Assembly (NCBI GenBank): GCA_015521085.1
Contig: WAOW01000004.1
Location: 1-64,000 of the forward strand
Direction: 5' to 3'
Length of the DNA stretch: 64,000 nt
Source: Candidatus Thermodiscus eudorianus
GTDB taxonomy: Archaea > Thermoproteota > Thermoprotei_A > Sulfolobales > Acidilobaceae
Part shown: piece by piece, positions 18,516-23,018 of the stretch
How the letters are laid out: every line of letters starts with the position of its first letter
Position numbering within the stretch: the first letter of the stretch is position 1
The notes under the pieces: model-generated
Told to the model about the DNA's origin: nothing
Database searches by the model: none
The model's input: only the letters and a program-made list of their open reading frames with translations
Translations under genes and position numbers: made by a program

Positions 18516-19826
18516 ATGGGAAAGGGAGTGACTGGAAGATACTATATCGAAACGTATGGATGCGCCCTTGCCCAATTCGAGGCCAGGGCTATGATGGAGT
18601 TGTTAGAGAAGGACGGCTATAGACGTGTTCCACGCCCCGAGGAGGCAGACGTCATAGTTGTGAATACATGTGCTGTCAGGCTCGACACCGAGCAGCGCAT
18701 AGCTGAGAGGCTTGAGAAACTCTACAGGAAGCTACCCAGTAAGAGGTACGTTGTAGCCGGGTGCCTGGCTAAGGCTAGGCCAGGCCTCATCAGGAGGATA
18801 ATCCCGAAGGCGAGCCTACTCTCGCCCCAGGCAGTAGATAGGGTCGTCGAGGCAGCCCGGTCGGGAGTCCCCCGCTTGTTCTTGGACGGTAGCAGGAATA
18901 CCCGGTGGATGCCCGCTAGCCTAGTCGACAGGGATAGAGGCCTCGTCGCGTCTATAATGATCCAGGAGGGATGCCTGAACAATTGCAGTTATTGTATAAC
19001 TAAGCTAGCTAGGGGCGGTCCGAAGAGTTATCCTCCAAGGGTTGTAGTTGACGCGGTTAAGAGGGCCGTGGAACAGGGAGCGGTGGAGATACGCCTGACG
19101 GGAACCGATACAGCTGCTTACGGAGTTGACCTCCCGGGCAGGCCTACGTTAGCCGACCTGGTCTGGAGTATCTTGGAGAAGGTCGAGGGCGAATACATGT
19201 TGAGGATAGGTATGATGACGCCGGAGATGGCGATGGAGCTCTCTCGTGACCTGATTGAGGCCTATAGGAGCGCTAGGGTATACAAGTTCTTCCACATACC
19301 CGTCCAGTCCGGCGATGACAGGGTTCTGGGCATTATGGGGAGAAGGTATACTGTAGACGAGTTCAAGGGGCTCCACGCCTTCATAAAACACAACTACCCG
19401 GACTCCATGTTCGCGACCGACATCATAGTCGGCCACCCGGGCGAGGACGATGAAGCTTTCCTAAACACTGTTAGGCTCGTTGAAGAGCTAAGATTCGAGC
19501 GAGTACACCTGGCGCAGTACAGCATAAGGCCACATACCAGAGCCGCCTCCATGAGACAGGTGTCAGATGGCGTGAAGAAACAACGGTCGAAAATCCTCTC
19601 AAAGATAGTAGAAGAGATAACGCTGGATATCCACAGGAGGTACATAGGATCAAGGCACAACGCGTTAATCACAGAGATCGGGTGGAGGAGGAACGCGTTA
19701 ACCGCGCGATTAGACAACTACTTCCCAGTGGTCCTGATAGGCGGGCACGCAGTGTTGGGTGAGAGGGTTATCGTCGAGATTAGGGATGCAACCTACTTTG
19801 ACCTCAGAGGAGTCGTCGTGGAGTAG
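18516..19826 (+). CDS. tRNA-t6A37 methylthiotransferase (MtaB/CDKAL1 type)
   Basis: A 436-aa radical SAM methylthiotransferase making ms2t6A at tRNA position 37. The N-terminal UPF0004 domain has TYGCALAQFEA and VVNTCAVR and CLAKARP cysteines; the radical SAM cluster CLNNCSYC lies near residue 150; a C-terminal TRAM-like beta domain follows after about 370. The archaeal/eukaryotic CDKAL1 branch is favoured by the YIETYGCA start. Cytoplasmic tRNA modification. Confidence 0.93.
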   Translation: MGKGVTGRYYIETYGCALAQFEARAMMELLEKDGYRRVPRPEEADVIVVNTCAVRLDTEQRIAERLEKLYRKLPSKRYVVAGCLAKARPGLIRRIIPKASLLSPQAVDRVVEAARSGVPRLFLDGSRNTRWMPASLVDRDRGLVASIMIQEGCLNNCSYCITKLARGGPKSYPPRVVVDAVKRAVEQGAVEIRLTGTDTAAYGVDLPGRPTLADLVWSILEKVEGEYMLRIGMMTPEMAMELSRDLIEAYRSARVYKFFHIPVQSGDDRVLGIMGRRYTVDEFKGLHAFIKHNYPDSMFATDIIVGHPGEDDEAFLNTVRLVEELRFERVHLAQYSIRPHTRAASMRQVSDGVKKQRSKILSKIVEEITLDIHRRYIGSRHNALITEIGWRRNALTARLDNYFPVVLIGGHAVLGERVIVEIRDATYFDLRGVVVE

Positions 19827-19863: not shown

Positions 19864-20055
19864 TTATTCTTCCTCTTCTTCCCAGAACTCTTCCTCTTCC
19901 TCCTCCCACTCCTCTTCGTCCTCGAACTCTTCTTCCCACTCCTCGTCTATATCTTCTTCCTCTTCCCATTCTTCCTCTTCTTCCCAGAACTCCTCTTCTT
20001 CCTCCTCCCATATCGGCGTTATCATGGTTGAGGCACCCCGTCGATTTCCCCTCAT
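19864..20055 (-). CDS. Tiny Glu/Trp repeat protein
   Basis: A 53- or 63-residue protein made almost only of glutamate broken by Trp, Phe and a few Asp: the ends carry near-identical units of the type WEEEEEEFWEEEEE. I know no family for it. Two starts are possible: ATG 20055 fits a leaderless transcript from a TATA box at 20073-20085, while ATG 20025 follows a GGGGTG site. The mature chain would be extremely acidic and probably unfolded or a charged helix. Nucleic-acid mimicry, metal or cation binding, or chaperoning of a basic partner are guesses only. The coding DNA is a long pyrimidine tract on the plus strand. Confidence 0.6.
   Translation of the reverse strand: MRGNRRGASTMITPIWEEEEEEFWEEEEEWEEEEDIDEEWEEEFEDEEEWEEEEEEFWEEEEE
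19867..20010. repeat. Polypyrimidine tract with terminal 42-bp direct repeats
   Basis: The plus strand is almost pure C and T over ~144 bp. The unit at 19867-19908 recurs at 19969-20010 with 40 of 42 bases identical. Such homopurine-homopyrimidine DNA can form triplexes and is prone to length change by slippage. Confidence 0.8.
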
Positions 20056-20072
20056 CTACGTTTGTCTGGGAG

Positions 20073-20085
20073 GGTATTAAAGGTT
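20073..20085. promoter_or_regulatory. TATA box upstream of the Glu/Trp gene
   Basis: The minus strand reads CTTTAATACCC about 26 bp before ATG 20055 of the Glu/Trp repeat gene. The same AT-rich stretch is only ~15 bp before the divergent methyltransferase ATG, too close for a TATA box on that side. Confidence 0.4.
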
Positions 20086-20091
20086 CAAGCG

Positions 20092-21015
20092 ATGAACGAC
20101 TATAATGGGATAATCGTTGGGGTCGGGGGCAACTTGTACCTAGAGTTATACGAGTACGCGCCTATACACGTCCCGGTACTAGATAAACAGCTAGCGGAAA
20201 AGATAATGAACGCATCCAGTCGTAACATAACCTATAAGATGGGTTACGCCGAAGTATCCGTAGCCAGGATAGACCGCGAGATACTACAGTTCCAGGTTAT
20301 GGGTAAGGTCTACGAGCTTTCGGTAGACGTGCTAAAGGGGATCCGCGGGGGAGACAAGCTCTACGCGGTACTCGGAGACGGGAAGCTAGTGCCGTTGGAG
20401 GTCAGAGGTAGCAGTTACTATAAACTATACCCGACGTCTCCATCGACACCGCCAACACTTGAAATAGACGGGATACACATGCACAGGATAACTGGCTCGG
20501 ACCCCCACAGAGACACTCTAGCGAAGATCAACGCCGCTAGGATACGGCGCGGGTCCAGGGTCCTAGATACCTGCATGGGTCTCGGCTACACGGCGATATA
20601 CTCGTTAGACTCTGGGGCAAGCCTAGTGGTGTCGTTCGAGGTGAGTGAGGAGGTACTCCTTCTAGCCGAGTACAACCCGTGGAGCTGGAGGCTGTCCGAT
20701 GCCAGGATAACTATACTACATAATGATGTAACCGAGGCCATACACTACCTCCCCGAAGGGTACTTCGACAGGGTTATCCATGACCCTCCTCGCCTAACGT
20801 CCTCCACAGGAGACCTCTATTCGAGGAGATTCTACGGGGAGCTCTACAGGGTTATGAAGCCCGGGGGTATCCTCTTCCATTACACGGGAGAGCCTGGCAA
20901 GCTGAGGAGGATCAATCTACCGGGCAGAGTTGCGTCGAGGCTCAAGGAGACAGGGTTTATAGTGAAATATTATGATGGGAGGGCTAGAGGGGTGGTGGCG
21001 GTTAGACCGCGTTAA
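20092..21015 (+). CDS. SAM-dependent methyltransferase with N-terminal beta domain
   Basis: About 307 aa. Residues 1-135 form a beta-rich N-terminal region; from about 150 a Rossmann methyltransferase follows with VLDTCMGLGYTAIYSL (SAM loop), VVSFEVSEEVL and the catalytic-type IHDPPRLTS. A DPP motif of this kind is common in enzymes methylating amino groups of bases, so a nucleic acid substrate is plausible, but spermidine-synthase-like folds also match. Start ATG 20092; TTG 20062 is upstream in frame. Confidence 0.75.
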   Translation: MNDYNGIIVGVGGNLYLELYEYAPIHVPVLDKQLAEKIMNASSRNITYKMGYAEVSVARIDREILQFQVMGKVYELSVDVLKGIRGGDKLYAVLGDGKLVPLEVRGSSYYKLYPTSPSTPPTLEIDGIHMHRITGSDPHRDTLAKINAARIRRGSRVLDTCMGLGYTAIYSLDSGASLVVSFEVSEEVLLLAEYNPWSWRLSDARITILHNDVTEAIHYLPEGYFDRVIHDPPRLTSSTGDLYSRRFYGELYRVMKPGGILFHYTGEPGKLRRINLPGRVASRLKETGFIVKYYDGRARGVVAVRPR

Positions 21016-22162
21016 ACCTCTTGCGCCAGTTCTCTAGGGCCTTTAGGTTCTCGGGGTCGACGCTAGGCTTCCTCTTCCTGATAACATCCCTGAAGTCGTC
21101 CATCGTTACGGGCCTTGGACTGTCGCTGTCGCTTCCGTTCTTGAAGAACTCTTTCACGGTCCTCATGTAGGCATCGAATACTATGTCTTTGATGTCGCTT
21201 CCATTATAGCCTTCGAGCATATCGGCCAGCTCGTCTAGATCAACGTCCGGGGCAAGCTTTATCTTCGAGGTCAACATCTCCAGGAGTCTCTTCCTGGCCC
21301 TCCTGTCCGGTAGGGGCACGTATATCCTCTTCTGGAACCTCCTTATGAAGGCTTCATCCAGCTTCCAGGGCTTGTTAGTGGCGCCGATCACATAGATGTG
21401 CAGTTTCTTGCCCTTATCCAGGAGCCCGTCCATCTCTTTGAGGAAGTGGTTCCTAACCCTGACCTCGCCTCCGACCTCGCTGGAGTGAACGCCGAAGAGA
21501 TCGTCGATCTCGTCTATGAATATTATGACCGGGATCCCCTGCTCCGCGCGCCTCCTAGCATAGTCGAATAACCTCTTCACATTCTTCTCTCCCTCCCCAA
21601 GCCACTTACTCATTATATTGGCTGCACTAACGTAGAGGAACTCGCCGTTCACTTCATTAGCCACAGCGGCTCCCAACATAGTCTTCCCGGTTCCGGGAGG
21701 CCCGTAGAGCAGTATTCCCCGGGGCCACTCTATGGGGAACAGGTCGGGCCTCTTTATCGGGTAGATTATGGCCTCCCTTATAGCCTCCTTCGCATCGTCG
21801 AGCCCGGCTATGTCGTCGAAGGTTATATTGGGCTTCTCCTTGAGGACGAACTCTGGTGGAACATCGCTTTTACCCTCGCCCTGTATTTCAACCCTGTACT
21901 CCTCGTCGGGCCCATTAGCGGGGAGCAGCTTCCCCTCAAGATGCTTTATCTTGGCCTTGTACTGCTTCAGGCTCTTCATGTAGAGGCTTATCAACGGGTG
22001 GTCTGGATAGTTGCGTATAAGGTTCTCAAGTATCTCCACAGCCTTCTTCATGTTATAGAGAGCTACCTCATAGTCTCCCCTCTTCTCGGCCTTCATAGCC
22101 GCCAGCACATGGTTCCTCACAGCCTTCTCTAGAACCTGCACCCCTCTGCTGATCACCGCCAC
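21002..22162 (-). CDS. cdvC: Cell division AAA ATPase CdvC (Vps4 homologue)
   Basis: A 386-aa Vps4-type ATPase that remodels ESCRT-III polymers at division. The N-terminal MIT three-helix domain (about 5-80) binds CdvB; Walker A GPPGTGKT is at 154-161, Walker B IIFIDEID near 214-221, and the arginine-finger region FIRRFQKRIYV follows. It lies downstream of cdvB on the same strand, separated by 31 bp. The 3' end overlaps the methyltransferase gene by 14 bp. Confidence 0.95.
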   Translation of the reverse strand: MAVISRGVQVLEKAVRNHVLAAMKAEKRGDYEVALYNMKKAVEILENLIRNYPDHPLISLYMKSLKQYKAKIKHLEGKLLPANGPDEEYRVEIQGEGKSDVPPEFVLKEKPNITFDDIAGLDDAKEAIREAIIYPIKRPDLFPIEWPRGILLYGPPGTGKTMLGAAVANEVNGEFLYVSAANIMSKWLGEGEKNVKRLFDYARRRAEQGIPVIIFIDEIDDLFGVHSSEVGGEVRVRNHFLKEMDGLLDKGKKLHIYVIGATNKPWKLDEAFIRRFQKRIYVPLPDRRARKRLLEMLTSKIKLAPDVDLDELADMLEGYNGSDIKDIVFDAYMRTVKEFFKNGSDSDSPRPVTMDDFRDVIRKRKPSVDPENLKALENWRKRFNAV

Positions 22163-22193
22163 ACACCCCTCGGGTGAGGATGGGGCCCGGGTG

Positions 22194-23018
22194 TTACGCC
22201 GGCAGGCTCTCCCCGCCGGCGGGGCTCTTCGAGGTGATCCTTATGACGCCCTTCTGTTCCAGCCTGTAGAGCACTTCCTTGACCACTCGCGTTGACACGC
22301 CGAGCTCAGCGGCGGCCTTCCTCACATTGAGGACGCCGCCATTCCTCCTAAGATACGCTAGCAGCTTCTCCTCTAGCACCTCGTAGTCGACGACTATCGA
22401 CTCTGGTATGGATGGGGCCAGGTTCTTAGCCTCCCTCTCAGCCTCCTCGAAGGCGCTTGCCAGTAGCCTCTTAACCTCTGGGTCCAGCTCGGCTATGCTG
22501 TTTGGAACAGGCATGCTCTCAGAGAGTATAGTTGACTGTGATATCACTGATTGCGCTGCATTGGCGAACTGGGCGAACACGGCTGTCAGCTCTGGGGAGT
22601 CATACATGTATGACTCCATGTTCTTCAACACTAGGTTTACTGTTGCAAATATCTTCGCTGTCTCTGTGAAGTCTCTTGTCGTCCTTATCCTTGATATGGC
22701 TGCTTCTAGCAACTTTATATAGGCTATGAGTATCTTTAGATGCCTCTTCTTAACTACGAGCTCGGCTGCGATGATCTCAGCGGTGTCCTTGTCATTCTTC
22801 TTTATGGACTCGTAGAGTTTGCCATGGAGATTGTTTATCTCGTCGGTGATCCTATAGTAGACTTCCTTTGCCTTATCCCTCGCGATCGAGAGCTGGGCTA
22901 GGACGTCGTCGAAGTCATAGTCGAACTCTTCACCGGGAACACCAGCTACGGGATCGACGCTCTCCTCGGCAGTCCAGGTAGCCCTCGCCCGTAACCTCTT
23001 TATGATGCCGAACACCAA
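22194..23018 (-). CDS. cdvB: ESCRT-III-like cell division protein CdvB
   Basis: A 274-aa ESCRT-III (Snf7-type) protein that polymerises at midcell. A basic N-terminus (MVFGIIKRLRARATW) leads into the long alpha1-alpha2 hairpin and further helices (about 35-190), then a C-terminal winged helix (about 205-265: LLAYLRRNGGVLNVRKAAAELGVS) that binds CdvA in relatives. TTG 23018 follows an ACGGGGTG site; GTG 23015 is equally possible. No cdvA precedes it here: the next gene upstream is 5S rRNA. Confidence 0.95.
   Translation of the reverse strand: MVFGIIKRLRARATWTAEESVDPVAGVPGEEFDYDFDDVLAQLSIARDKAKEVYYRITDEINNLHGKLYESIKKNDKDTAEIIAAELVVKKRHLKILIAYIKLLEAAISRIRTTRDFTETAKIFATVNLVLKNMESYMYDSPELTAVFAQFANAAQSVISQSTILSESMPVPNSIAELDPEVKRLLASAFEEAEREAKNLAPSIPESIVVDYEVLEEKLLAYLRRNGGVLNVRKAAAELGVSTRVVKEVLYRLEQKGVIRITSKSPAGGESLPA

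Follow-up and report, generated by a model that had tools for sequence, protein, structure and literature searches.

Glu/Trp microproteins of the Thermoproteota: a conserved gene family recurrently encoded beside ABCE1

Archaea of the phylum Thermoproteota encode a family of microproteins made up essentially of Glu and Trp, often no more than a few dozen residues long. We are nearly certain that these are real protein-coding genes, and comparison of codons between close relatives shows strong purifying selection acting on the sequence of the microprotein. The ancestral place of the gene appears to be beside the gene for ABCE1 (Rli1), often together with TFS and with the genes for Cgi121 of KEOPS and S17e nearby.

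The microprotein gene and its close relatives

The member described in most detail here is encoded on the minus strand of the window (by which we mean the whole 64-kb stretch of DNA analyzed), where an open reading frame (ORF; 20055-19864) runs from ATG through 63 codons to TAA and includes 35 Glu, 3 Asp, 6 Trp, and 3 Phe residues. The first-pass annotation had described a Glu-rich frame with interspersed Trp and Phe, a start, a stop, and nearly identical ends, and this description holds: EEEEEEFWEEEEE is present twice, at both ends of the ORF, in copies with identical translations and 37 of 39 bases in common. The corresponding plus-strand tract (Table 1) has the strongest strand asymmetry in the window (most asymmetric 140-bp stretch). 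Downstream of Trp16, the purine-only codons are 18 GAA and 17 GAG, and no AAA, AAG, AGA, AGG, GGA, or GGG codon occurs after that residue. Thus, the purine tract has a codon phase.

A second in-frame ATG at 20025 gives a 53-aa form, which reads MITPIWEEEEEEFW...EEFWEEEEE before the TAA. Judging from the sequence, this inner ATG is most likely the start rather than the ATG at 20055, because GGGGTG stands 8 nt upstream of it and the N terminus that it gives matches the short N termini of relatives, whose Glu body begins equally far from the start; the 10-aa extension of the longer form shows no conservation in the N termini of relatives. The TTTAATA motif (20081-20075) would set the start of transcription at about 20055, making the 63-aa form leaderless or providing the 53-aa form with a 30-nt leader. 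TATA-like motifs also lie upstream of 75 of the 104 family members described below, a count made without a control that carries no evidential weight.

Table 1. Features of the window in and around the microprotein gene
Feature	Position	Strand	Basis
Glu/Trp microprotein gene, preferred 53-aa form	19864..20025	-	ORF; frame conserved in relatives; pN/pS; GGGGTG
Possible 10-aa N-terminal extension (63-aa form) or 30-nt 5' leader	20026..20055	-	ATG at 20055
TATA-like TTTAATA, about 23 nt before ATG 20055	20075..20081	-	read from sequence; putative function
Homopyrimidine-rich tract (plus strand), complement of the GAR codons	19867..20013		86% pyrimidine
MiaB/MtaB-type tRNA methylthiotransferase, separate from the microprotein	18516..19826	+	TIGR01578, E = 2e-115
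Archaeal SAM methyltransferase, separate from the microprotein	20062..21015	+	weak Methyltransf_25 match; conserved family alignment

The ORF is convergent with the methylthiotransferase gene across a gap of about 40 bp, divergent from the methyltransferase gene, and has no co-directional gene directly downstream. The ABCE1 gene of the same genome (G000, C4:65186-66994, minus strand) lies 45 kb away, about 1.2 kb past the end of the window, and no microprotein was found beside it at that locus. The methyltransferase gene is itself convergent with the cell division genes for CdvC and CdvB (20062-23018), and the methyltransferase-CdvC adjacency is seen again in many genomes of the window's family.

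The first-pass annotation took absent or frameshifted counterparts in relatives as evidence against a gene. Using the methyltransferase gene as an anchor, we instead recovered, in several relatives, acidic frames containing Trp that occupy the corresponding site and strand. The pattern EEEFWEEEE, with up to 3 mismatches, was present in 31 of the 48 genomes of the window's family; the contexts fetched for these matches contained an acidic ORF in all but two cases (L171 and L172), and a few are isolated matches. The placement between mtaB and a methyltransferase gene is true of the window, but the neighbors vary within the family: mtaB and the methyltransferase in some genomes, an EamA transporter and the methyltransferase in others (Aeropyrum-type), and PyrE-like and Spt4 genes in still others. 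Because the neighbors change, it is the gene that is kept and not its setting; a function tied to mtaB or the methyltransferase was rejected on this ground, and the mtaB/methyltransferase site is a recent, family-level location, the recurrent neighbor across the phylum being ABCE1. One member of the microprotein family (L175) has an internal duplication, suggesting growth through repeat duplication. The Spt4-adjacent members (L143, L144, L145, and L152) contain more Gly, Ser, and Phe with fewer or no Trp residues; they may have branched off and diverged, or else represent an acidic protein that arose by convergence.

Over 20 pairs of close relatives, 276 base differences are distributed as 29, 19, and 228 at codon positions 1, 2, and 3, respectively, and pN/pS is 0.033; alignment of low-complexity proteins can hide changes, but pairs of equal length point the same way (e.g., 14 synonymous versus 1 nonsynonymous codon in L183/L184 and 11 versus 0 in L232/L233). 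Adjacent Glu codons are identical at a frequency of 0.436 versus 0.552 expected, i.e., GAA and GAG alternate above chance, which is the opposite of repeat expansion. These observations bear on the alternative that the tract is not a gene at all, being either a repeat expansion or the triplex-forming DNA element raised by the first-pass annotation. Its 86% pyrimidine content would suit such an element, which should conserve the purine tract irrespective of frame; against this, the purine-only codons are all GAR, the changes fall mainly at third positions with the GAR phase kept, neighboring Glu codons alternate, and start and stop are preserved in the 104 members. The tract is thus neither a microsatellite nor a triplex element, the DNA-element reading is for practical purposes refuted, and we see hardly any chance that no gene is present. 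Codon phase, the same frame and site in relatives, and strong purifying selection together argue that the ORF of the window did not arise by chance.

A phylum-wide family and its linkage to ABCE1

A protein-level homology search with the microprotein recovered one self-match in its own genome and one weak match among 40 relatives. Because alignment searches miss the family on account of its low complexity, we used DNA pattern searches instead, with the 21-base pattern GAR3-TGG-GAR3 (EEEWEEE) as the query and the reversed pattern as a control. The pattern was found in 105 of 214 genomes of the order (reversed pattern, 10) and in 197 of 398 genomes drawn from across the phylum Thermoproteota (reversed pattern, 9 of 398), the exact pattern being a lower bound on presence. 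The family is not confined to Desulfurococcales. Usually a single locus per genome carries the pattern, and the loci sampled are almost all short stand-alone ORFs (e.g., MLFEEEWEEEEEEEWWEEEEEWEEEEW and MVFEEDWEEDFDEFDEEEDWEEEEDWEEEEW).

We read and collected 104 distinct members, which range from 21 to 68 aa (median, 32.5 aa) and consist of 68% Glu and 11% Trp. Acidic residues make up more than half of every member, and basic residues number 0 to 3, about half of the members having none. After a short N terminus, Glu runs are punctuated by Trp, Phe, or Leu every 5 to 8 residues, and EEEWEEE or its variants are present in most members, repeated within the protein. Trp residues recur every 5 to 8 positions or as WW doublets, which are common in some lineages; relative to shuffled sequences, Trp-Trp gaps of 2 to 3 are avoided and gaps of 5 to 8 are favored (gap 2, 0.3% versus 14%; gap 5, 19% versus 8%). 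The C-terminal residue is Trp in 58, Glu in 22, and Phe in 15 members and is preceded by Glu.

The exceptions to stand-alone ORFs are of three kinds. In family f15 (L203, L204, L205, L239, and L240), a large membrane-anchored protein (about 880 to 925 aa where complete, with no Pfam match) ends after a transmembrane segment in a tail ...KKSKTNLEEEWEEEEEL (EEEWEEEEEL), a fusion-like use of the acidic Trp motif. In L221 (2923-3174, minus strand), a Cys-rich, zinc-ribbon-like start (MPICDICG...CYDCLG) is followed by a EEEWEEEEWEEEWEEEE tail, and in L282 (286-1521), a PhoU/TrkA_C protein has the C terminus IQEEEWEEE. A viral origin was considered and rejected: the pattern matches 96 stretches of IMG/VR contigs, of which just 4 fall within short acidic ORFs.

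The first-pass annotation knew of no family of this kind, and all our profile and structure database comparisons bear this out: no Pfam or NCBIfam family was matched by five members even at an E value of 10, the PDB contains no sequence match to the microprotein, and no description of such a family was found in searches of a partial literature library. We therefore regard the microprotein as a new kind of protein that belongs to no named family in these databases, with a proposed mode of action resembling a known motif (see below).

When we clustered the genes that flank 40 loci of distant families, one recurrent partner of ~600 aa emerged, with ABC_tran, Fer4_RLI, and Fer4 domains, i.e., ABCE1/Rli1; TFS (Zn_ribbon_RPB9), Cgi121 of KEOPS, S17e, and a THUMP protein also recur nearby. 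ABCE1 was then located in 80 pattern-positive genomes, with a match in 78, and the microprotein lies within 1 kb of it in 42 and within 5 kb in 49 of these 78, against about 0.6 genomes expected at random. Linkage at ≤5 kb extends over 19 of 31 families, which as GTDB families share ancestry and are not independent trials, so that the synteny may be inherited; in the other 12, the window's own included, the gene is not near ABCE1. A linked microprotein is mostly directly upstream of ABCE1, and in most linked lineages the ORF is co-directional at a distance of 50 to 400 nt. A look that started from ABCE1 covered 30 genomes, many of which lack the exact pattern, and placed the microprotein upstream of ABCE1 in further families, among them a family of large genomes (f11, which we take to be Sulfolobaceae) in which the distance is about 45 to 55 nt. 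In L223-L226 and L234, which presumably are Staphylothermus/Desulfurococcus-type loci of one family, the microprotein gene is divergent from TFS-ABCE1 and its sequence is still conserved. The fair reading of these data is an old ABCE1 locus that includes the microprotein; in the window's family, the gene appears to have left that locus and yet to have been maintained.

A possible role with ABCE1 and the alternatives

Tentatively, and with less than even confidence, we favor the reading that the gene encodes a disordered peptide of acidic and aromatic residues that acts in trans, in concert with ABCE1 or the small ribosomal subunit. The microprotein would be translated as an intrinsically disordered polyanion. 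ABCE1, or a partner that it has at the 30S subunit, would offer hydrophobic pockets with basic rims into which the Trp residues dock from their acidic surroundings, and the peptide would thereby assist or limit splitting of the ribosome, release of ABCE1, or reinitiation. Action in trans is suggested by position, since the gene is divergent from ABCE1 in L223-L226 and L234 and isolated in the window with its sequence conservation undiminished. The idea in the first-pass annotation of an extreme polyanion is still compatible with these findings.

The mode of action would be comparable to that of the acidic Trp motif of eIF3j/Hcr1. To our knowledge, archaea have no eIF3j and the organisms carrying the microprotein have no eIF3. 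In eIF3j, Trp52 of the acidic motif fills a hydrophobic pocket of the eIF3b-RRM, and the surrounding acidic residues are needed for affinity (PMC2824034); HCR1 binds RLI1/ABCE1, and its deletion is suppressed by excess RLI1 (PMC3836723), while eIF3j is named as a recycling assistant in a study of an archaeal ABCE1-30S complex (PMC7196836). The microprotein shares with the N-terminal acidic motif of eIF3j/Hcr1 a conserved Trp set in acidic residues, except that it repeats the motif several times, and the functional partnership of eIF3j/Hcr1 with ABCE1/Rli1 (PMC2824034 and PMC3836723) is the likeness proposed for it. However, eIF3j is larger and includes a C-terminal half with a KERR motif, whereas in the microprotein the motif is the whole protein; members (21 to 68 aa, with 0 to 3 basic residues) have no such C-terminal half, which rules out membership in the eIF3j family. 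The likeness to eIF3j is one of composition only.

AlphaFold2 gave no docking signal for an in-frame microprotein-ABCE1 read-through chain (20 sequences), in which ABCE1 had a mean pLDDT of 85 and the microprotein was disordered (pLDDT, 25 to 30); since low-complexity peptides rarely model, this result lends docking no support and says little against it. Any of the other informational genes near ABCE1 (TFS, S17e, Cgi121, and Sua5) could encode the true partner.

The strongest competitor is a general nucleic acid mimic or a chaperone for a basic protein (chromatin, ribosomal, or RNA polymerase factor) with no specific ABCE1 role, which we consider fairly unlikely. Extreme negative charge with aromatic anchors agrees with it, as do the different locations of the gene between families and the Spt4 or TFS neighbors in several, but it leaves the ABCE1 adjacency in 19 of the 31 families unexplained. 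The acidic tips of the single-stranded DNA-binding proteins SSB (SSB-Ct) and T7 gp2.5 (its tail) are among the closest known systems. They resemble the microprotein in combining an acidic run with a terminal aromatic residue and in DNA mimicry or partner docking, whereas they are Asp-rich tails of folded proteins and, unlike it, have no stand-alone gene.

Two further readings are each improbable. One, which nevertheless has real appeal, is a cis-acting leader peptide, in which translation of the Glu run would destabilize the ribosome and couple ribosome stability to the expression of downstream TFS-ABCE1. N-terminal Asp/Glu runs, such as ten Glu, do destabilize bacterial and yeast ribosomes (PMC9718836), and the leader peptide MgtL works by intrinsic ribosome destabilization, buffered by an ABC-F ATPase (PMC11282234). 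Like MgtL, the microprotein would be an acidic nascent chain upstream of a gene with an ABC ATPase involved, and many ABCE1-linked loci have the upstream, co-directional arrangement. In contrast, the window ORF faces mtaB, the copies in L223-L226 and L234 are likewise not upstream and co-directional, and conservation persists at these positions; this rules out a leader peptide as a general class. The microprotein also differs from MgtL in needing no downstream gene, in its far longer acidic run, and in its conserved regular Trp spacing, for which destabilization has no need.

The other, of similarly low probability, is mimicry of the acidic C-terminal tail of the stalk protein aP1, whereby the microprotein would compete for the surface on ABCE1 or translational GTPases to which the stalk binds. 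The ribosomal stalk tail binds ABCE1, and, like the microprotein, it is rich in Glu, carries hydrophobic anchors, and ends in an aromatic residue. However, the aP1 tail belongs to a folded protein and has an end of the VDIGEGLSGLFGF type (stalk tails in the fetched loci end EEEEEKEEEVDIGEGLSGLFGF), whereas the microproteins have Trp instead of Leu/Phe; none of the 104 members has a GLFxLF-like C-terminal anchor, and with no GLF end, membership in the stalk family is ruled out. Least probable among the functional readings is a cation- or metal-buffering polyanion, which would account for the large net negative charge and the acidic majority in every member but would not lead one to expect conserved Trp spacing, a C-terminal Trp, usually one locus per genome, or a recurrent neighborhood.

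Implications

Few known functional proteins would be simpler than one built essentially from two amino acids and conserved across an entire archaeal phylum under strong purifying selection. The family is invisible to standard annotation and alignment, and low-complexity microproteins of this kind are systematically missed. The family is, in addition, a natural setting in which to test how cells manage the translation of long runs of Glu, which destabilize ribosomes elsewhere. The further proposal that archaeal ribosome recycling has in this Thermoproteota-wide family its missing accessory factor, a partner of ABCE1 made only of Glu and Trp and comparable to the eIF3j motif, is somewhat unlikely as it stands; with the gene placed beside ABCE1, the old question of what helps recycling in archaea, where eIF3j is missing, can be put to a direct test in Sulfolobales that are amenable to genetics. 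If true, the microprotein would be an unrecognized helper of protein synthesis, hidden because low complexity defeats both gene callers and homology searches.
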